DNA of 9,138 nucleotides. Source: JBFMHD01 sp040752395 [NCBI: Candidatus Hydrogenedentota bacterium] (GTDB lineage Bacteria; JBFMHD01). A model generated the notes under the pieces. That model was not told the origin of the DNA. It ran no database searches and saw only the letters and a program-made list of their open reading frames with translations. Below, piece after piece: positions 65 to 9,115 of this stretch. How positions within the stretch are numbered: position 1 is the stretch's first letter; every line of letters begins with the position of its first letter. Made by a program: the position numbers and the translations under genes. The stretch spans positions 1 to 9,138 of the forward strand of contig JBFMHD010000113.1 of the NCBI GenBank assembly GCA_040752395.1, written 5' to 3'.

Positions 65-87
65 CTTGCTTCTTGCTTCTTGCTTCT
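65..87. repeat. Heptad tandem repeat, CTTGCTT type
   Basis: Three exact copies of CTTGCTT (65-71, 72-78, 79-85) are followed by a degenerate unit. The block sits just upstream of the yajC leader. A TTG at 80 within it opens the yajC frame, but it is a poor start because it is made of repeat sequence. Confidence 0.85.
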
Positions 88-118
88 ACTTGATATTATT
101 AGAGTTACAGCGTTTTTC

Positions 119-125
119 AGAGGAG
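119..125 (+). promoter_or_regulatory. Ribosome binding site deciding the yajC start
   Basis: AGAGGAG lies 5 nt before the ATG at 131 and is a strong Shine-Dalgarno sequence. It argues for that ATG rather than the in-frame TTG at 80, which lies inside the CTTGCTT repeat. Confidence 0.8.
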
Positions 126-130
126 CCATT

Positions 131-493
131 ATGTTTGAAAATTTAATTTATGCACAACAAGCTACACCAACCTCACAGTCCCAACCTGGTTGGGGTTCTG
201 TGTTACTTCCTTTTGTTCTAATATTTTTTGTTTTCTATTTTATTGTTATAAGACCGCAGAAGAAAGAACAGAAAAAACAGGATGATATTAGAAAGTCGCT
301 TCAAAAGGGAGACAAAGTAGTCACGATTGGCGGCATTATTGGAACCGTAACTATTGTTAAAGATGAAATCGTTGTTTTGAAAGTTGATGACAACACCAGG
401 ATAGAATTCAGAAAAAATGCCATCTCGTATAAAATACCAGAACCCGAGAAAAATAAAGAACAGATCAGTGCTAAACTAGGAGGCCCAAAATAA
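131..493 (+). CDS. yajC: YajC, preprotein translocase accessory subunit
   Basis: This encodes a 120-residue protein of normal length for YajC, the small inner-membrane partner of SecDF that associates with the SecYEG translocon. One hydrophobic segment at about residues 22-41 ends in the family signature IVIRPQKK. A lysine/glutamine-rich cytoplasmic stretch follows, then the conserved KGDKVVTIGGIIGT block (about 59-72) and a small beta-rich domain containing DDNTRIEF. The ATG at 131 is chosen because of the AGAGGAG before it and because the N-terminus then matches the family. The acylphosphatase gene begins 2 nt after the stop, so the two are probably co-transcribed. secD and secF, common neighbours of yajC, are not downstream here. 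Confidence 0.95.
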   Translation: MFENLIYAQQATPTSQSQPGWGSVLLPFVLIFFVFYFIVIRPQKKEQKKQDDIRKSLQKGDKVVTIGGIIGTVTIVKDEIVVLKVDDNTRIEFRKNAISYKIPEPEKNKEQISAKLGGPK

Positions 494-495
494 TC

Positions 496-768
496 GTGGT
501 TAAAACGAGACAATTTATTGTTAAGGGTCGAGTACAGGGAGTGGGGTTTAGATATTTTGTTTACAGGTATTGTGTTAATCTGGGATTAAGAGGCTATGTA
601 AAGAACCTGCGGGATGGAAATGTTGAGGTTGTTGCTCGTGGAGAAGAGGAAATATTAAATACTTTGTATGGAATACTAAAAGAAGGACCACATCTTGCAA
701 TAGTAAAAGATATCCATGTTAATGAACTAAATGGCGTTAGTTTTACAGATTTTGATATAAGGTATTAA
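496..768 (+). CDS. acyP: Acylphosphatase
   Basis: This is a 90-residue protein, the usual size for acylphosphatase, a small cytosolic alpha/beta enzyme that hydrolyses acyl phosphates such as 1,3-bisphosphoglycerate and carbamoyl phosphate. The first signature, GRVQGVGFR, carries the catalytic arginine (R19). The second, GYVKNLRDG, carries the catalytic asparagine (N37). The later VSFTDFDIRY ending is also typical. The start is a GTG at 496. A possible AGGAGG lies at 478-483 inside the end of yajC, with 12 nt of spacing. The gene starts 2 nt after the yajC stop, so translation is probably coupled. The protein looks intact. Confidence 0.95.
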   Translation: MVKTRQFIVKGRVQGVGFRYFVYRYCVNLGLRGYVKNLRDGNVEVVARGEEEILNTLYGILKEGPHLAIVKDIHVNELNGVSFTDFDIRY

Positions 769-793
769 GTAACTACTGAACTTTGAGCTTAAA

Positions 794-835
794 CCGTACG
801 GAATCCGTAGCACGTGGCATGGAGCCGGTAGTCTG
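794..835. repeat. Degenerate heptad repeat before the isomerase gene
   Basis: Six 7-bp units in one phase each end in G: CCGTACG, GAATCCG, TAGCACG, TGGCATG, GAGCCGG, TAGTCTG. The last two resemble the GCCGGCT-GTAGTCC pair at the left edge of the window. The block is open in the isomerase frame, which is why a gene finder could extend the protein into it. It is more decayed than the other repeats, so this call is moderate. Confidence 0.5.
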
Positions 836-845
836 CAATCTTTAT

Positions 846-1652
846 ATGAGATTTGGGTTTTGTATCCATTTTGGATTAAAAGATATTATAAAAGCTATTA
901 AGAAAGCTAAAAGATTAGGGTTTAATTATGTAGATATTACAATTGACCATCCTACAATGATGGAGGTTGATGTAAGAGAGATAAAGAGATTATTAAAAGA
1001 TTATGAAATGGAGATAGGAATACAAACGCCCTGGGAGACTATATTCTTAGCCTCAAGCTGGGAAGAATGCATTCGAGGGAATTTAGAGGTTATTGATAGA
1101 TGTTTTTCATTTGGTGAAAAAATTGGTTCTAAATACCTTAATGTTCATATAAGGGAAGATTTTGGAAATTTTCTTAATATATGGAACCTTACTGAAGAAA
1201 AAAAACAATTAATGACAGAAACCCTGAAAGAAATTGTTTCAAGATATTCAAATAAAATGATTGTAACAGCTGAGACACCAGGGAGTTCTATTTTCTCTGT
1301 ACCAGAAAATTTTAACAGTATAATAAGAGAAAGCGGTTGTGATGTCTGCATTGATACCGGTCATATCTGGCAGAGCACAAAAAATAATTATAAAAAATTT
1401 GTTCATTGGTTTAATATTCTTAATGATAAAATAAAAGTCATCCATCTCTCCGGTGGAAAAAAGACAAAAACAAGGGTTGCCCCACATTATGTACCTAACC
1501 TTAAGCAGCTTGAAATAATGACTGATTGCTTTAAAAGATGCAAAAATCTGAATTACATTATGTTTGAATTCTTTAGAGGTGTAAAACCTGAGAATTTACA
1601 CAAAAGAGAGATACAAATTTTAAAAAAATTAAGAGATGAGATAGATTACTGA
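846..1652 (+). CDS. Sugar phosphate isomerase/epimerase-like TIM-barrel protein
   Basis: From the ATG at 846 this is a 268-residue protein of the xylose isomerase-like / AP endonuclease 2 superfamily. These are TIM barrels that bind divalent metal and act on sugars, sugar phosphates or abasic DNA. The start MRFGFCIHF forms the first beta strand. Likely metal or catalytic residues are E143 in VTAETPGSS, D170 and H173 in CIDTGHIW, H200 in VIHLSGG and E241 in FEFFRG; H101 may also take part. The length fits the sugar isomerase/epimerase branch, but the substrate cannot be told. The frame is open back to a TTG at 783 and an ATG at 819. Those extensions are repeat-derived (794-835) and lie outside the fold, so 846 is preferred, although no start has a clear Shine-Dalgarno sequence. 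The gene may be read with yajC-acyP. Its end overlaps the convergent permease gene by 7 bp. Confidence 0.75.
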   Translation: MRFGFCIHFGLKDIIKAIKKAKRLGFNYVDITIDHPTMMEVDVREIKRLLKDYEMEIGIQTPWETIFLASSWEECIRGNLEVIDRCFSFGEKIGSKYLNVHIREDFGNFLNIWNLTEEKKQLMTETLKEIVSRYSNKMIVTAETPGSSIFSVPENFNSIIRESGCDVCIDTGHIWQSTKNNYKKFVHWFNILNDKIKVIHLSGGKKTKTRVAPHYVPNLKQLEIMTDCFKRCKNLNYIMFEFFRGVKPENLHKREIQILKKLRDEIDY

Positions 1653-2530
1653 ATAGTTATATATTTTAATATCAAAAATAAAAAGAGTGGATATAGTAAA
1701 GTTGAGACAAATACAGTGCTCGCTGCAAATGAAGCCCCTTTTTTACATTCCTCTGATATTAAATAACTCATCACAGCTGAGGGTGTGGCTGATAAAATTA
1801 ATATAACAGGCATAATCTCTTTCGGGGGTGAGAATAAAAGTATAAATAAAGAGGCAAAAAATAGCCCGAAAAAATATCTGAATAATACCCCACCTGAAAT
1901 AAATAAAAGATTTTCTAATTTTAATGATGAGAGTGAGATGCCAAGAGTGACAAGAGCGACTGGCAGAGCGGATTTTGCAGGGAATGAAATAAAATTCAGG
2001 ATATATTGAGGCAGTGATAATCCTGTTAGATTAAATATTATCCCTAAAAGTATAGCAAAAAGCACAGGGTTAATTAATAAAACTTTAAGCCGTTCTCTTT
2101 TTGGGATATCAGACCCGGCAATAGACAGCCCGAGTGTAAAAATTAGAACTGATTGAGTCTGGTCATAGATAATGGCAAGCGAGGTTTTTTCATAACCAAA
2201 AAGAGATTCTATAATAGGTATGCCAAGGAATCCAGAATTCATAAAAACTACGGGTAACATATAGCTGCTAAAATCTATCCCTAAAATTTTTCCAGAAATC
2301 ACTATGAAAACAGTTGAAAAGAAAATAACAAAAAAAGCAGAGAATATCATATAGAAAATATTAGATCCTATAATATTGACCCCAACGATTGAGAGAAAGA
2401 CATAGAACGGTAAGAGATAATTAACAACGAGGACTGACAAATCTTCTACATTAAATTTTCTGATTTTCCCGGCAACAAACCCGATTAAAATAGCAAGAAA
2501 TACTACAAGCCATTTATAAGAAATATTCAT
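1646..2530 (-). CDS. AEC (auxin efflux carrier) family transporter
   Basis: The 294-residue protein is almost wholly hydrophobic, with about ten membrane-spanning segments. This matches AEC family permeases (Pfam Mem_trans), which export or exchange small organic anions such as malate or malonate in bacteria. The family's NSGFLGIPI motif starts at about N98 in the first half. The second half repeats the five-helix pattern, with ALPVALVTLGISLSSL and LILSATPSAVMSYLIS. The minus-strand ATG at 2530 is preferred over a TTG three codons upstream because that TTG lies in repeat sequence. No strong ribosome site is seen; heptad repeats of GGTTTTx type sit where it should be. The gene converges on and overlaps the isomerase gene. 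The substrate is unknown. Confidence 0.85.
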   Translation of the reverse strand: MNISYKWLVVFLAILIGFVAGKIRKFNVEDLSVLVVNYLLPFYVFLSIVGVNIIGSNIFYMIFSAFFVIFFSTVFIVISGKILGIDFSSYMLPVVFMNSGFLGIPIIESLFGYEKTSLAIIYDQTQSVLIFTLGLSIAGSDIPKRERLKVLLINPVLFAILLGIIFNLTGLSLPQYILNFISFPAKSALPVALVTLGISLSSLKLENLLFISGGVLFRYFFGLFFASLFILLFSPPKEIMPVILILSATPSAVMSYLISEECKKGASFAASTVFVSTLLYPLFLFLILKYITIQ

Positions 2531-2571
2531 AAAACCCAAAACCTATAACCGAAAACCAGACACCGAACCTA
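2530..2571. repeat. Heptad repeat in the permease leader
   Basis: On the plus strand the units are TAAAACC, CAAAACC, TATAACC, GAAAACC and AGACACC in one phase from 2530 to 2564, then a shifted GAACCTA. Read on the permease strand these are GGTTTTA, GGTTTTG, GGTTATA, GGTTTTC and GGTGTCT, directly abutting the ATG. The block therefore forms the permease's 5' leader and replaces a normal ribosome binding site. Confidence 0.75.
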
Positions 2572-2576
2572 AAAAC

Positions 2577-2603
2577 TTTATATTATAATAATCTATCAGT
2601 CAA
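2577..2603 (-). promoter_or_regulatory. Possible promoter of the permease gene
   Basis: On the minus strand TTGACT (2603-2598) is followed after 15 nt by TATAAA (2582-2577). Both boxes are close to the sigma-70 consensus but the spacer is short. It would give a leader made mostly of the heptad repeats. This AT-rich gap offers many chance matches, so confidence is low. Confidence 0.3.
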
Positions 2604-2647
2604 AATTTTTCTTTACTTTTTTCTTATTAATAGAGATATTTACTAAA

Positions 2648-3919
2648 ATGAAACCAGCATCCTTAATTTTTATATATCTTTTTATCTTAATTCAACCATT
2701 GTCCAGTATAACTATCACTTTATGGCATTCGGCGCTCGGGAAAGAGGCCGAAGTGATTGAAGGTCTTGCTACTATTTTTAATCTGCAAAGCAATGATATA
2801 AATTTAAGGGTTGAAAATGTCAGAAAGGAAGGCCAGGGATGGTTTATCTCAGATTATGTTGTTAAGAAGGTGAAGGAGGGTAGGGGACCTGATGTTTTTA
2901 TCTGGGTCAATGATAAAATAGGTTATTGGGCAAATCATAATATTATATATCCGCTTGATGAATTTCTTGATAAAGATAAGATTTACGAATTTTTGCCCTC
3001 AACAGTAGAGGCTGTTAAATTTAATGAACGTTATTATGGATTACCCGTTGCTTTTGAATGTCTTATTTTATTTTACAATAAAAAATATATAAAGAATCCA
3101 CCACTTACTACTGATGATTTAATAAAACTTGCAAAAGAATTTACTGACAAAAAGCATCAATTATTTGGCCTGTGTTATCAGAATAGAGATTTTTATCATC
3201 ATGCTATATGGTTTAATGGTTTTGGGGCAAAACTTTTTGATGAGCGTGGCAAACCAATAGTGACCTCTAAAGAATGCAGAGACTCCTTAATATTTGCTAA
3301 AAGAATTATAACAAATGAAAAGATTTTTCTTCTGAGTTCTGATATTGGTGGTGATGAGGTGAGTTATGATTTACAATTTAAATATTTTAACGAAGAAAAA
3401 ATTGCTATGATGATTACCGGACCCTGGGCTTTATGCTCTATAAATTCAAATATAGATTTCGGCATAGCTAAACTACCGTTTATTAAGGAAGCTAACAATT
3501 GGGCCGAACCGTATCTTGGTGTTAAAGCTATAATGATAACAACCTCATCTAAACATAAAAAAGAGGCTTTTTCTGTTGCGTCATTTTACGCTTCAAGTTA
3601 TGCAGGGTATGTATTTGCAACCCAGGCTGGATACCAGCCTGCTGCTAAAGGTGCTTATGCTTATGATGAGGTCAATAAAAACCAGTTTTCTATAATGTTT
3701 AGAAATCAAGCTTATAATTCAAAACCGTTACCAAATAGAGAAGAAATGGAAATAGTGTGGAATGTTATGAATGGTTACTGGCAGACTGCCGGCGACCCCT
3801 CAACTGAAAGAAAAGGCATAATCACTCTGATAACTATTGAAAATGGATCGACGGAAAAAGTGTTAAAGGATTATCAGAAAATAGTTGATGAAGAATTCAA
3901 AAAAATGAGGAAGAAATAA
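2648..3919 (+). CDS. MalE-like extracellular solute-binding protein, probable sensor component
   Basis: This 423-residue family 1 solute-binding protein has a hydrophobic signal peptide (about residues 1-20). There is no lipobox cysteine, so the mature protein should be free in the periplasm. The alignment by eye to maltose-binding protein is good throughout: ITITLWHSALGKE at the mature N-terminus, GPDVFIWVNDKIGYWA (80-95; compare GPDIIFWAHDRFGGYA in E. coli MalE), GLPVAFECLILFYNK (131-145), ITGPWALCSI (256-265) and a C-terminal VWNVMNGYW (370-378). Sugar-stacking tryptophans W86, W260 and W371 appear retained, and D89 matches MalE D65. The ligand is probably a carbohydrate, but its identity is unknown. 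No ABC permease or ATPase gene is nearby. Instead the TAA overlaps the ATG of the membrane phosphatase gene (TAATG at 3917-3921), which suggests a sensing role. No confident promoter was found; a TATAAT at 2584 lacks a -35 box. Confidence 0.9.
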   Translation: MKPASLIFIYLFILIQPLSSITITLWHSALGKEAEVIEGLATIFNLQSNDINLRVENVRKEGQGWFISDYVVKKVKEGRGPDVFIWVNDKIGYWANHNIIYPLDEFLDKDKIYEFLPSTVEAVKFNERYYGLPVAFECLILFYNKKYIKNPPLTTDDLIKLAKEFTDKKHQLFGLCYQNRDFYHHAIWFNGFGAKLFDERGKPIVTSKECRDSLIFAKRIITNEKIFLLSSDIGGDEVSYDLQFKYFNEEKIAMMITGPWALCSINSNIDFGIAKLPFIKEANNWAEPYLGVKAIMITTSSKHKKEAFSVASFYASSYAGYVFATQAGYQPAAKGAYAYDEVNKNQFSIMFRNQAYNSKPLPNREEMEIVWNVMNGYWQTAGDPSTERKGIITLITIENGSTEKVLKDYQKIVDEEFKKMRKK

Positions 3920-5814
3920 TGAGAATACAACATAAACTTTTTCTCGTAATGGTGGCTGTCACAATTATACCCTTGATTATATTTGGCAGCCTCTCATTAA
4001 ATCAATCGTCGAAAATAATTAAAACAAGAGTATTGGTTCAACTTCAGAAATTAGGTGTAGACCAGAGCAAAATTATTAAAGAGTATTTTCTAAATCTTGA
4101 TGAAGAGATTAAATGGTTCGAAACTAATGATAATTTTCAGCTCTATATAAGATATTTTGACTCGGGGAAAGACATATCTTTCCTTAAGAGTCTGCTTGAA
4201 AGTTCTTTTAGTTATAGAATGAAAAACATTGAGGAACTTCAGGCTATACGATTTTATAGCAGTGACAAACAGGTGAAATTTGAACTCGGGAAACTCGAAT
4301 TTTTTCCACGGGATATAAAAGAAGAATATCTCCTGACAAACTCTGTTTTTCTTTTTAGAACCGAAGACGGTTTTTTAAGAATGAACGTTGTAAAACCGAT
4401 ATTTCTGGAAGGCTTCGAGACCACTCGCGGTTATTTAGTGCTCGGATTAAACTCTACCAGGTTTTTAAATTTGTTTGATAACTGGACACTTGGTGAAAAT
4501 GAAGAGGCAATAGGATTTATTCTTGATACTAAAAACCGTTTCTTTGCCCATACAAAAGATAGTAAAATATTGGAATCATCAAAATCAATTGATTTTGAAA
4601 AAAATACTTTTACCGATAGAGATATTAAAGACAAATTTATATATCTTAAATTTGTGCTTTCCGAAACACCTTATCTCACAAAAGATTCATATCTTTATGC
4701 TGCTGTCTCTCTAAATAAATTTATGCAACCAGTTAATCTTTTAAGAAAAATGGTGATATGGGTTGGTATAGCATCTTTGCTGGTGGCTTTGTTTTTATCT
4801 TATCTTATGGCAAAAACCATTATTCAGCCGGTAGAGAGTCTTGTTGAAGGTGCAAGGATCGTTGCCAGGGGAGACCTTAATTATCAGATCCCATTACAGA
4901 GAACTGACGAGCTGGGAGAACTTACTGATACCTTTAATGAGATGATAAGAAATCTTAAAGAAGCATATAGAAAACTCGAAAATCAAATCGAGTTAGTTAA
5001 TGCTGATTTAGCCCGAACCAATGAAGAATTGAAAATAAGCAACGAAGAACTCCAAAAAAAACAGAGACAGATTGAAGAAGAACTTGATTTCGCAAGACAG
5101 GTGCAGGAAGGGTTGCTGCCGGATGTACCTGAAAAATTAGTTGGTATAGATTTGGCCTCCAAAATGATACCTGCAAAAGCTGTTGGCGGAGATTTTTTTG
5201 CCTATGATTTTGACCCGGATTTCCCTCAACGCATTAGCATTGGCATCGGTGATGTTAGTGGGAAAGGAGTACCAGCTGCATTACTCATGGTCGCTGTAAG
5301 AGACCAATTTCAGTCAATAACGAAATCTGAAAAAGCGCCCGGACGGGTACTCAGCTTATTGAATAAAAGTATCCATCAGGATATAGGAGCTGAATTATTT
5401 GTAACTTTCTTAAATGCTGAGATAGATGTAAAAAATATGGTTCTTTTGGTATCAAGCGGTGGCCATCACCCTGCTCTCGTTTATAGAAATAAAACCGGCG
5501 AGATTGAGGAGGTATCCTCTGGCGGTATTATACTTGGTATGTTCGCTGATATAAAATATCAAGAAAAAGTTGTTGAAATTAACAAGGGAGATGTTATACT
5601 TCTATATACCGATGGCGTTGTTGAGGCTGTATCTCCCGTGAAAGAGATGTTCGGCATAGATAAATTGAAAGGATTATTTAAAACTTATGCTAATGATTCC
5701 GCAGGCAATATTTGCTATAATCTTTATCAGAAGATTTTAGATTTTGTTGAATCAACGCCGCAGTTTGATGATATAACGATTATTGTGGCTAAGATTGGAG
5801 GAACAGATCAATGA
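3919..5814 (+). CDS. Membrane HAMP/PP2C (SpoIIE/RsbU-type) sensor phosphatase
   Basis: The 631-residue receptor has, in order, a membrane helix (about 7-28), an extracytoplasmic region of about 245 residues that may be a Cache-type sensor, a second helix (about 278-297), a HAMP domain (about 299-347) and a charged coiled coil (about 347-400). A C-terminal PP2C-type serine/threonine phosphatase of the SpoIIE/RsbU class fills about 405-628. Metal-binding aspartates are visible: D425 in VGGDF, D445 in GDVSGKG, D565 in YTDGVVEA and D617/D618 in FDD. The expected activity is removal of phosphate from a STAS-domain antagonist, here the next gene. A GAGGAAG at 3907-3913 precedes the ATG, which overlaps the binding-protein stop. 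The stop overlaps the STAS start as ATGA. The context suggests that the binding protein modulates the outer domain. The Cache assignment rests only on topology and length. Confidence 0.93.
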   Translation: MRIQHKLFLVMVAVTIIPLIIFGSLSLNQSSKIIKTRVLVQLQKLGVDQSKIIKEYFLNLDEEIKWFETNDNFQLYIRYFDSGKDISFLKSLLESSFSYRMKNIEELQAIRFYSSDKQVKFELGKLEFFPRDIKEEYLLTNSVFLFRTEDGFLRMNVVKPIFLEGFETTRGYLVLGLNSTRFLNLFDNWTLGENEEAIGFILDTKNRFFAHTKDSKILESSKSIDFEKNTFTDRDIKDKFIYLKFVLSETPYLTKDSYLYAAVSLNKFMQPVNLLRKMVIWVGIASLLVALFLSYLMAKTIIQPVESLVEGARIVARGDLNYQIPLQRTDELGELTDTFNEMIRNLKEAYRKLENQIELVNADLARTNEELKISNEELQKKQRQIEEELDFARQVQEGLLPDVPEKLVGIDLASKMIPAKAVGGDFFAYDFDPDFPQRISIGIGDVSGKGVPAALLMVAVRDQFQSITKSEKAPGRVLSLLNKSIHQDIGAELFVTFLNAEIDVKNMVLLVSSGGHHPALVYRNKTGEIEEVSSGGIILGMFADIKYQEKVVEINKGDVILLYTDGVVEAVSPVKEMFGIDKLKGLFKTYANDSAGNICYNLYQKILDFVESTPQFDDITIIVAKIGGTDQ

Positions 5815-6173
5815 AGGAAGAATATTTCAGCATTAATGTAAGGTCAGATAGACCGGGTGGTGATATAAAAATTATTGATCTTGAAGGAGAACTTGATATT
5901 ACAACTCTTTCTGCTTTGAGAGATATGTTTGATGATTTATATGAAAATAAGTATTATCAGTTAATTATAAATTTTTCTAATGTTAAATATATTGACAGCA
6001 CCATTTTTGGATTACTCGTAAATAAACTGAAGATATCGCGTCACAATTTTGGTGATATTAAAATATTCGGTTTAAATGAGCAACTGATGAGAATTTTTAA
6101 AGTTCTCGGTGGTTTAAAAATATACAAAATTTATGAAAATGAAAAAAAAGCTGTCGAGGCATTCAAGGAATGA
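5811..6173 (+). CDS. STAS-domain anti-sigma factor antagonist (RsbV/SpoIIAA-like)
   Basis: This 120-residue single STAS domain is the usual length for anti-anti-sigma proteins. The strand ending in DLEGELDITT (23-32) and the phosphorylation loop NVKYIDSTIFGLLV (57-70) are typical. S63 in the D-S-T motif is in the position of the serine phosphorylated in B. subtilis RsbV (MDSTGLG); the following glycine is replaced by I65. The family model is that the unphosphorylated form binds a kinase/anti-sigma factor and frees its target. A strong GGAGGA lies at 5797-5802, 8 nt before the ATG, and the start overlaps the phosphatase stop (ATGA). The kinase gene follows with the same overlap, which supplies both the writer and the eraser of its phosphate. 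Confidence 0.92.
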   Translation: MKEEYFSINVRSDRPGGDIKIIDLEGELDITTLSALRDMFDDLYENKYYQLIINFSNVKYIDSTIFGLLVNKLKISRHNFGDIKIFGLNEQLMRIFKVLGGLKIYKIYENEKKAVEAFKE

Positions 6174-6703
6174 AAGATAGTGTTAAAGAAATAGATATAA
6201 AAAAGTTGAACATTGAGAATATAGCCCCAAACCATCTTAAAATTACTTTCCCTAACGATTTTTCTTATGTAAGAATTGTCAGGAAAGCCTGTATAGATTT
6301 TGTTAAAGGGTTTATAGAGAATGAAAATAAACTATTTCAACTTGAGATTTTAATTGATGAAGTCTGTAATAATGCTATAGAACATGGTTCCCCACTTTAT
6401 AAAATGCAGGATATCTATATTAATATCTGGTGCCGAAAAGACGAGATAAAGGTTCGGATTCAGGATGGTGGTAAAGGATATCGGGTAGGAGACGATGAGC
6501 TTAACAGAGAGTTTAGTAAGGAGATTATAAAAGAGAGAGAGGAATTATTCGAGGGATTAAGAGAGATACGCCGAGGACGAGGACTTCTACTTTTAAAAGA
6601 ATTATCCTCTTATTTTGATATCAATCTTGATCCTGTACGTGGGTCAGTTATCGAGTTCTCGGTATGCCCGCGTAGCTCAGCTGGCAGAGCAGCTGATTCG
6701 TAA
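6170..6703 (+). CDS. RsbW/SpoIIAB-like serine kinase (HATPase_c), 3' end inside a tRNA gene
   Basis: This GHKL-type ATPase of the anti-sigma kinase class has 177 residues as read. The N box is ILIDEVCNNAIEHG (60-73), with E64 and N68 in the positions of the SpoIIAB catalytic glutamate and magnesium-binding asparagine. DGGKG (99-103) is the G1 box. RGRGLLLLKEL (135-145) is the G2 box, after a charged lid of about 30 residues. Such proteins phosphorylate a STAS antagonist and hold a sigma factor or another output. The start overlaps the STAS stop (ATGA). The fold appears complete at about V165. The last 12 codons, from C166, are read through the 5' half of tRNA-Thr, and the TAA stop (6701-6703) is in the anticodon loop. 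The tail SSAGRAADS is the familiar translation of a tRNA. No earlier in-frame stop exists. The output target is not in the window. Confidence 0.88.
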   Translation: MKDSVKEIDIKKLNIENIAPNHLKITFPNDFSYVRIVRKACIDFVKGFIENENKLFQLEILIDEVCNNAIEHGSPLYKMQDIYINIWCRKDEIKVRIQDGGKGYRVGDDELNREFSKEIIKEREELFEGLREIRRGRGLLLLKELSSYFDINLDPVRGSVIEFSVCPRSSAGRAADS

Positions 6704-6738
6704 TCAGCAGGTCAGCAGTTCGAATCTGCTCGTGGGCT
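6666..6738 (+). tRNA. tRNA-Thr, anticodon CGT
   Basis: A full cloverleaf is visible. The acceptor arms are GCCCGCG (6666-6672) and CGTGGGC (6731-6737), with one G-U pair. The D arm is GCTC/GAGC with GG in the loop. The anticodon stem is GCTGA/TCAGC around TTCGTAA, anticodon CGT at 6699-6701, which reads ACG. The variable loop is 5 nt, and the T arm is AGCAG-TTCGAAT-CTGCT. G1-C72, C2-G71 and the G35-U36 anticodon bases match known threonine identity elements. The discriminator is T6738. CCA is not encoded directly after it; the CCA at 6742-6744 is 3 nt out of place. The first 38 nt overlap the kinase gene. The convergent phospholipase D gene ends 7 nt beyond. No convincing dedicated promoter was found. 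Confidence 0.95.
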
Positions 6739-8107: not shown

Positions 8108-8878
8108 ATGTCAAAATTAACTATAGTGCTTACTAACGATGATGGTATTATGGCGCCGGGGCTTGAAATATTGGAGCGGAGGCTTCAAACCATTGCTGAA
8201 GTGACTGTCATAGCTCCTGTTGAACAGATGAGTGCAGTAAGCCATTCTCTAACATTAACAAAGCCTTTACGTGTTGATTTTGTCTCCGCTAACAAATATG
8301 CTGTTTATGGTACACCAGCTGATTGCATAGCTTTCGCTGTAAGGGAGTTATTGCCTGATATACCCGCTTTAGTCGTATCTGGTATAAATAATGGACCTAA
8401 TCTTGGTGAGGATGTTATATATTCAGGTACTGTTGCGGGTGCGCGAGAAGGCGCTTTATATGGGATTACCTCGCTTGCAATATCTCTTGCAAATGAGAAA
8501 AGGATTACTATTCTTCCTGAAGACTACGATAAAGCTTCGAACATCGCTTTGAATGTAATAAAATCAATACTTAAGAATAATTTTCTTTACAAAGATGTAT
8601 TCTTAAATCTTAATGTTCCAGTTTTAAAAGACAGAGAAATAAAAGGATTAAAAGTGACACATCTTGCGTCAAGAAAGTATCTTGGGAAATTCATCCCTGA
8701 TAAAGAAGAGGGTATATCAAAATATTATTGGGTTTCAGGTGATGAGCCACCGGTCTGGGAAGGTAGTGAGCATAGTGATTATTATGCTATAAAGAATGGG
8801 TTTGCATCACTTACACCGCTCGGGCTTGAAGCTACTGCTTATAACAGAATGAAAGAATTTGAGATTCTGGAGTATTAG
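8108..8878 (+). CDS. surE: 5'-nucleotidase SurE
   Basis: The 256-residue SurE protein is a cytosolic metal-dependent nucleotidase that removes phosphate from nucleoside 5'- and 3'-monophosphates and is linked to stationary-phase survival. The N-terminal TNDDG gives metal ligands D11 and D12. The loop EQMSAVSHSLTL gives S42, and VSGINNGPNLG gives N94, matching E. coli D8, D9, S39 and N92. IYSGTVAGAREG (104-115) is another family signature, and the length is normal. The ATG at 8108 is 14 nt after GAAGGA (8088-8093), a slightly long spacing; no better start exists. A strong promoter and a palindromic candidate operator lie just upstream. surE often neighbours pcm in other bacteria; no such gene follows here, only repeats. 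Confidence 0.96.
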   Translation: MSKLTIVLTNDDGIMAPGLEILERRLQTIAEVTVIAPVEQMSAVSHSLTLTKPLRVDFVSANKYAVYGTPADCIAFAVRELLPDIPALVVSGINNGPNLGEDVIYSGTVAGAREGALYGITSLAISLANEKRITILPEDYDKASNIALNVIKSILKNNFLYKDVFLNLNVPVLKDREIKGLKVTHLASRKYLGKFIPDKEEGISKYYWVSGDEPPVWEGSEHSDYYAIKNGFASLTPLGLEATAYNRMKEFEILEY

Positions 8879-8918
8879 GCAACATTTTGCAAATGTCGAA
8901 TTAGAAATTGAAGTTAGA

Positions 8919-8952
8919 GGTAGCTGCCTGCGCCGCGCTCTACCGCGGCAGC
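8919..8952. repeat. GC-rich hairpin downstream of surE
   Basis: GCTGCC (8923-8928) pairs with GGCAGC (8947-8952) and continues after a one-base bulge as GCG (8930-8932) with CGC (8944-8946). GGTAG (8919-8923) and CTACC (8940-8944) offer an alternative pairing. The stretch is far richer in G+C than its surroundings. There is no following T-run, so it is not a typical terminator. It may be a REP-like element. Confidence 0.5.
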
Positions 8953-8954
8953 CA

Positions 8955-8985
8955 GGCAAAGGCACAAAGGCACAGAGGCACAAAG
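8955..8985. repeat. 8-bp tandem repeat, GGCACAAA type
   Basis: GGCACAAA (8961-8968), GGCACAGA (8969-8976) and GGCACAAA (8977-8984) follow a shortened GGCAAA (8955-8960). The block is non-coding and adjoins the GC-rich hairpin on its left and the GAGTC-type hairpin on its right. Confidence 0.8.
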
Positions 8986-8990
8986 TATGA

Positions 8991-9055
8991 AAAGAGTCGT
9001 GAGTCGTGAGTCGTGAGTCAAAACAGGACTCGAGACTCAAGACTCAAGACTTTTT
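8991..9055. repeat. Heptad-built inverted repeat, terminator-like
   Basis: The left arm is GAGTCGT three times plus GAGTC (8994-9019). The right arm is GACTCGA, GACTCAA, GACTCAA, GACT (9027-9051), with a 7-nt loop AAAACAG between. The GAGTC/GACTC cores pair in four blocks, separated by G-A mismatches and a U-A or U-G pair. The stem extends through AAA (8991-8993) and TTT (9053-9055). The final TTTTT (9051-9055) makes it resemble an intrinsic terminator for surE, and the A-run gives the same on the other strand. Termination itself is an inference. Confidence 0.65.
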
Positions 9056-9059
9056 AGCA

Positions 9060-9115
9060 GGCTTTTGGCTTTTGGCTACAGCCGGCTGGAGTCTGAAGCC
9101 AGTAAGCCCGAAACC
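9060..9115. repeat. Heptad repeat block, GGCTTTT to GCCGGCT type
   Basis: Units in one unbroken 7-bp phase are GGCTTTT, GGCTTTT, GGCTACA, GCCGGCT, GGAGTCT, GAAGCCA, GTAAGCC and CGAAACC. From 9081 they align unit by unit with the block at 1-21 (GCCGGCT, GTAGTCC, GTAGCCT). The 23 bases after 9115 show no recognisable feature before the window ends. Confidence 0.75.

Follow-up and report, generated by a model that had tools for sequence, protein, structure and literature searches.

A solute-binding protein gene overlapping a HAMP-SpoIIE phosphatase gene suggests a nutrient-responsive partner switch in a Candidatus Hydrogenedentota bacterium

A contig of a Candidatus Hydrogenedentota bacterium (JBFMHD010000113.1, assembly GCA_040752395.1; the 9,138 nucleotides analyzed are referred to here as the window) carries four overlapping genes that code for a MalE-like periplasmic solute-binding protein (SBP), a membrane receptor phosphatase of the HAMP-SpoIIE type, a STAS protein and an RsbW-like HATPase kinase. 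The overlap of the SBP and receptor genes suggests that the two proteins work together. We consider it moderately probable that the operon is a nutrient-responsive partner switch, in which the MalE-like protein would report its ligand to the receptor, and the receptor would dephosphorylate the STAS protein and so retarget the kinase. The pairing of an SBP with such a receptor recurs with another SBP family, NMT1, in Bacteroidota and on a plasmid. We are inclined, if narrowly, to see binding-protein-gated PP2C receptors as a class of their own, joined at least twice (SBP_bac_1 and NMT1) by overlapping frames, through which an external nutrient would drive a serine-phosphorylation switch that involves neither a histidine kinase nor a cyclase or chemoreceptor.

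The four-gene operon

The genes lie on the plus strand at 2648 to 6703. They encode the SBP (2648 to 3919; 423 amino acids; SBP_bac_1, E value 1.2e-24), a receptor phosphatase with two transmembrane (TM) helices (3919 to 5814; 631 amino acids; HAMP, 5e-15; SpoIIE, 6.1e-47), a STAS antagonist (5811 to 6173; 120 amino acids; STAS, 4.2e-13) and an RsbW/SpoIIAB-like serine kinase (6170 to 6703; 177 amino acids as read; HATPase_c_2, 5.7e-12). Every junction is an overlap, with the SBP stop and the receptor start sharing 1 nucleotide in TAATG (3917 to 3921), and the two following junctions sharing 4 nucleotides in ATGA (5811 to 5814 and 6170 to 6173); the gene coordinates and overlaps of the original prediction, made from this DNA alone, were recovered unchanged. 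Domains were assigned by a Pfam scan of ten window proteins, supplemented with NCBIfam. Among these ten there was no ATP-binding cassette (ABC) permease, ABC ATPase or sigma factor, and no MalF, MalG or MalK gene beside the SBP, in agreement with the earlier statements that the transporter genes and the output target are both missing. Neither promoter-like sites (14, against 18.4 with a standard deviation of 4.2 in shuffled sequences) nor terminator-like sites (3, against 2.4 with a standard deviation of 1.7) were in excess between 2400 and 6900.

The SBP begins with a signal-like hydrophobic segment (residues 6 to 24), and its first 45 residues have no Cys, i.e., no lipobox Cys. Its closest natural relative in the PDB is the maltodextrin-binding protein 1elj (E value 3.6e-38, residues 23 to 384), and when the SBP is aligned with the MalE portion of a fusion protein, sugar-pocket positions, including aromatic ones, are seen to be kept. 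In what we take to be the MalE numbering, the conserved residues are W62, D65, E111, Y210, W230 and W340, while R66 is replaced by Lys and the E153/Y155 stretch is different. Judging from this pocket, the ligand is likely an oligosaccharide, probably an alpha-glucan-like one.

In the receptor, two hydrophobic segments (7 to 25 and 278 to 296) flank about 250 residues, the layout of a receptor with two TM helices and a periplasmic domain enclosed by them. The outer domain (approximately 26 to 277) is followed by HAMP (296 to 348), a helical linker and the SpoIIE/PP2C domain (437 to 626). The PP2C catalytic motifs are present (VGGDFF at 422, GDVSGKG at 444, YTDGV at 563 and FDDIT at 616), and the metal-site residues are invariant in the alignment with the NMT1-type receptors described below. 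Ser63 of the STAS protein, within IDSTIFG, aligns with the DS site of SpoIIAA (1th8, E value 4.6e-9) and is the predicted phospho-acceptor. The kinase has kept its N and G boxes (EVCNNA at 64, DGGKG at 99 and GRG at 136) and matches RsbW (6m36) with an E value of 0.0081. These domains and residues support the partner-switch module that had been proposed from the translations.

According to the mechanism that we favor, the MalE-like protein would bind an oligosaccharide in the periplasm. Rather than supplying a transporter, or in addition to doing so, it would contact the receptor with which it is co-translated, at the receptor's outer domain. The signal would travel through the second TM helix, HAMP and the helical linker to a PP2C dimer, and the change there would alter the dephosphorylation of STAS Ser63, raising or lowering it. 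Unphosphorylated STAS protein would then bind the HATPase kinase, so that the target of the kinase would be either freed or recruited. This path combines two behaviors described in the literature. Linker-mediated activation via dimeric helices has been argued for PPM phosphatases with HAMP, PAS and other inputs (PMC12143880, in the part of the text available), and SBPs act on 4HB, HBM and Cache outer domains, as described in the available part of a review of SBP-sensor kinase complexes (PMC6321045).

Recurrence with NMT1 binding proteins

Some of the Bacteroidota receptor matches that extended into the HAMP region led to a second kind of pair, in which an NMT1-family SBP gene precedes a dCache-HAMP-SpoIIE receptor gene. 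Within the Bacteroidota class of one of these genomes (G179), perhaps one of Chlorobium-like bacteria, the receptor is found in 15 of 98 genomes at 17 loci (E value of 1e-60 or lower), each of which was opened. Immediately upstream of the receptor lies the NMT1 gene in all 14 loci whose contig extends that far (at L090, L097 and L103 the contig ends at the receptor), and in each of the 14 there is an ATG that allows an NMT1/receptor overlap of 14 nucleotides. Downstream sequence could be reached in 14 of the 17 loci (not L087, L088 and L102), where BLAST to references detected a STAS gene in 13 and a HATPase gene in 12; both are absent from the piece fetched for L099, and in L091 no HATPase was detected. 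The outer domains of the NMT1-type receptors gave matches to cache profiles. L089 (3204 to 7005, G250:C108) contains the NMT1, dCache-HAMP-SpoIIE, STAS and HATPase genes only, on a 7.8-kb contig without ABC genes; a further receptor locus of this genome, L090, does include ABC parts.

The NMT1 family is present in 53 of the 98 genomes of the class (E value of 1e-8 or lower). The 14 PP2C-linked members fall in one score band (123 to 145 bits), and among the matches listed the other members are four at 193 to 199 bits and the rest at 110 bits at most. When five other NMT1 stretches were opened, the gene adjoined an ABC ATPase in two (L137 and L140). Another stretch, L136 (G235:C8), holds a row of NMT1-type genes on one strand (about 330 amino acids, five matched) interspersed with genes of 509 to 551 amino acids; the genes of this stretch gave no match to ABC references.

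The same four functions are encoded on plasmid pTs417 of “Ca. Thiodictyon syntrophicum” (NZ_CP020371.1; L086), in the order STAS, NMT1 SBP, dCache-HAMP-SpoIIE and HATPase. The annotated start of the receptor is probably too late, as an in-frame ATG lies before it at 3975 (the region concerned being 3975 to 4074) and overlaps the SBP stop by 4 nucleotides. No permease is annotated in the 5-kb flanks, and an ATP-binding cassette protein is encoded on the opposite strand (141 to 791), some 1.7 kb from the STAS gene. The HATPase (6080 to 6364) has 94 amino acids, and its match to the profile starts only at position 36, which may mean a truncated protein or a disturbed gene. The Thiodictyon receptor is 37.2% identical to those of the G179 class over 94% of the query; the receptors are homologous, and we therefore count both groups as one further origin, i.e., as a single family of pairs. 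There are 37 plasmid relatives of the Thiodictyon SBP, and the one that was opened (Klebsiella) sits with ABC genes. The original prediction had the SBP gating the phosphatase. The recurrent overlap of SBP and HAMP-SpoIIE genes, in 14 of 14 class loci and in Thiodictyon, supports this indirectly, while the contact, the ligand and the gating themselves are what we infer.

As a control, we used 24 other Bacteroidota SpoIIE loci (the 20 top-ranked plus L074, L078, L079 and L080). Their SpoIIE genes have mostly GAF_2 (18 of 24) and only once HAMP, so they represent another receptor type and make a weak control. Their 47 neighbor frames, some of them probably spurious, matched 93 Pfam families; no SBP family was among the 25 of these that were listed, nor did BLAST of the neighbors with SBP references give any match. 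That an SBP gene came by chance to be inserted beside an unrelated partner-switch operon would fit with the lack of any relative found for the exact arrangement, but the lack of an SBP among the families listed for the control neighborhoods, the 1-nucleotide overlap in the same direction and the recurrence with another SBP family make this hardly credible. At another locus, L117 (2633 to 5361), a gene for a lipoprotein-like protein of 346 amino acids, without a Pfam match, overlaps a SpoIIE gene (562 amino acids) by 1 nucleotide; its product is possibly another extracytoplasmic partner.

Evidence against the coupling and alternative readings

A number of observations weigh against a direct coupling of SBP and phosphatase. 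The outer domain of the window receptor has no significant Pfam family, even with E values up to 10, no significant match to a PDB chain and no match to the profile of the NMT1-type receptors (hhalign, E value 0.51), and for these reasons it may belong to a different domain type. AlphaFold single-chain models made without an alignment had predicted local distance difference test scores of 40.8 and 33.0, too poor for use. No relative combining the receptor with an SBP_bac_1 protein was found. A scan of genome contigs with the window receptor retrieved no close relative of it, only two weak Bacteroidota loci that were rejected as irrelevant, being stretches of proteins of 2152 and 2234 amino acids. 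Seven phage records matched the receptor, none of them with 80% receptor coverage, and the outer domain alone gave two plasmid records at an E value of 0.7, no meaningful relative. With the outer domain unclassified and no relative seen that has an SBP_bac_1 protein, the NMT1 clusters have to be regarded as analogues, not orthologues, of the window operon, and the two arrangements were possibly assembled separately.

The MalE-like protein could also serve permeases elsewhere in the genome. Relatives of the window SBP were found in 65 of 395 Bacteroidota genomes; they are distant (19 to 28% identity), and 29 of the 30 loci opened had a permease-type frame with an EAA-type motif (a pattern of our own, which in 4 of the 29 matched the SBP frame itself), pointing to an ordinary transport use of the family. 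On plasmids, 528 records have relatives of this SBP. Among viruses, no relative was retrieved with the SBP, with SurE or with the receptor alignment A1. It is thus conceivable that the SBP acts in transport only, feeding a MalFG permease encoded elsewhere and sharing the operon for the sake of co-production, with the receptor sensing a signal of its own directly. dCache domains, such as those of the receptors in the NMT1 clusters, commonly bind ligands directly.

Plasmid SpoIIE genes bear on the same alternative. Separate searches gave 278, 518, 336 and 371 records with SpoIIE matches, of which ten neighborhoods were opened; they were picked by eye and the PLSDB gene tables are incomplete, so that no rate can be derived from them. 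Apart from Thiodictyon, eight of nine showed no annotated SBP neighbor (Aminobacter, Nitratidesulfovibrio, Sinorhizobium, Sphingomonas, Azospirillum, Marinobacter, Methylomonas and Flammeovirga, the last with its gene starting at base 1 of the record and its upstream side outside the view). The Marinobacter receptor is of the GAF/PAS type, and Pfam confirmed HAMP-SpoIIE for the Aminobacter, Nitratidesulfovibrio and Azospirillum genes, where receptors of this architecture therefore stand without an annotated SBP beside them. Some SpoIIE receptors, then, are paired with an SBP and others are not. A dCache-HAMP-SpoIIE gene in Aureimonas (pAU20a) overlaps the gene of an ABC_sub_bind SBP, an ambiguous situation. 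It was rejected as a further case, since three plasmid relatives of its SBP (one Nitratidesulfovibrio and two Azospirillum, opened out of 13 other records) precede large proteins of the major facilitator superfamily (MFS) instead. In these three plasmids (L132, L133 and L134), the SBP gene is followed by that of a protein of 826 to 987 amino acids whose C-terminal half is MFS, and in both Azospirillum plasmids an alanine racemase gene precedes the SBP.

Neighboring SBPs need not bind the receptor either. According to the accessible sections of PMC11113362, the ligand-binding domain of AgtS, a sensor kinase of Pseudomonas aeruginosa, was not bound by two SBPs whose genes lie near that of the kinase. 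Still, an SBP devoted only to transport seems to us unlikely, if deserving of attention, given a window without ABC permease or ATPase, a stop/start overlap of SBP and receptor found in two SBP families and the existence of L089, a four-gene cluster whose contig has no ABC genes.

A related possibility is that the switch monitors a whole transporter complex, the SBP together with a permease encoded elsewhere, and so reports flux. ABC transporter genes are indeed present in 12 of the 14 class loci reachable downstream (not in L089 and L103), and in 11 of these 12 they separate the receptor gene from the STAS gene. The original prediction had pointed to permeases in relatives, if served by the paired SBP, as evidence against its proposal, and on this matter the outcome is divided. 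The ABC genes are common, but both permease proteins scanned by Pfam (L072 and L076) come with built-in SBP_bac_3 domains, which belong to a different family and make the NMT1 protein a less than obvious partner for them, and L089 has no ABC genes on its 7.8-kb contig. We consider flux reporting improbable and prefer direct gating of the phosphatase by the SBP. In the L072 protein (85 to 3132, 1015 amino acids), from a G179-class operon, a BPD_transp_1 permease is fused with four stretches of SBP_bac_3.

A tRNA gene overlapping the kinase gene

A feature that had escaped notice in the original prediction is a tRNA-Thr(CGT) gene on the plus strand at 6666 to 6738 (Rfam RF00005, 66.3 bits; also found by ARAGORN), which covers the last 38 nucleotides of the kinase frame. 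With no stop before the tRNA, the frame ends inside it, at a TAA (6701 to 6703) that begins with the third anticodon base and takes in the two bases after it. The HATPase match spans residues 27 to 156, and 165 full codons precede the tRNA. Cleavage at the 5' end of the tRNA in a shared transcript would leave the kinase message without a stop after these 165 codons, which could lower the kinase dosage. tRNAs were present in 4 of the 22 loci scanned (a set in which L071 to L073 repeat parts of L102, L100 and L101), and none of them overlaps the switch genes.

Surroundings of the operon

The sole transporter among the window proteins scanned is an AEC-type carrier (1646 to 2539, minus strand), divergent from the operon. 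The remaining proteins are YajC, an acylphosphatase, a TIM-barrel protein, a cardiolipin-synthase-like phospholipase D protein and SurE. The TIM-barrel protein (783 to 1652) has a match below the cut-off to the cobamide-remodeling enzyme CbiR (36.9 of 105 bits). Short degenerate repeats can be seen by eye in the intergenic regions 2530 to 2575 and 8955 to 9060 (ACCGAAAACC-like; GTCGTGA, GACTCAA and GGCACAAA units), and an open reading frame of 77 amino acids on the minus strand (8807 to 9040), overlapping the second of these regions, is probably spurious.

Comparison with known systems

In the RsbU-RsbV-RsbW and SpoIIE-SpoIIAA-SpoIIAB systems, a PP2C phosphatase, a STAS phosphoprotein and a HATPase kinase are likewise encoded together (the scheme is given in the available part of PMC8256260). 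The window operon differs from them in having a membrane receptor with an outer domain and an SBP within the operon, and in that no sigma factor is encoded among the window proteins scanned. A parallel in architecture is SiaA of the SiaA-SiaB-SiaC-SiaD pathway of Pseudomonas aeruginosa, also a two-TM HAMP-PP2C protein, which dephosphorylates SiaC in a response to carbon availability (PMC7647112, available part). However, the window receptor scored 120.6 bits with the NCBIfam SiaA equivalog model, well short of its cut-off of 700, and while the SiaA pathway uses phospho-Thr68 and a diguanylate cyclase, the window has Ser63 and no diguanylate cyclase gene; no SBP is named in the sections of PMC7647112 available.

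The NMT1 clusters (L089, L100, L086 and others) share with the window operon the four functions and the overlap of SBP and receptor genes. They differ in the SBP family, NMT1 instead of SBP_bac_1, in their recognized dCache outer domain and in usually having ABC genes in the operon. The Thiodictyon plasmid (NZ_CP020371.1) and the clusters of the G179 class make the idea testable beyond the organism from which the window comes.

The original prediction did not recognize the pairing as a characterized system, and the literature agrees as far as the available parts of the sources go. The SBP-stimulated receptors listed in 2024 (PMC11113362) and 2022 (PMC9602780) are chemoreceptors, sensor kinases, protein (Ser/Thr) kinases and diguanylate cyclases/phosphodiesterases, with no phosphatase in the sections available, and the accessible text of a PP2C classification paper (PMC12088040) mentions neither HAMP nor a binding protein. 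Literature searches on SBPs with RsbU, SpoIIE, PP2C or partner switching gave no SBP-gated phosphatase among the matches listed, as judged by titles and the beginnings of abstracts, which does not prove absence. Were the proposed reading correct, phosphatases would join the list of receptors switched by SBPs, and knowing the family of a neighboring SBP would allow the input of some partner switches to be predicted. The operon suggests a little-known route from an outside nutrient to an internal phosphorylation signal. Each of its components is of a known kind and their combination appears to be new. LuxP-LuxQ, TorT-TorS and XylFII-LytS also unite an SBP with a receptor that has a periplasmic domain, but the output of LuxQ, TorS and LytS is a histidine kinase, whereas that of the window receptor is a PP2C phosphatase, in a complex that is proposed here.

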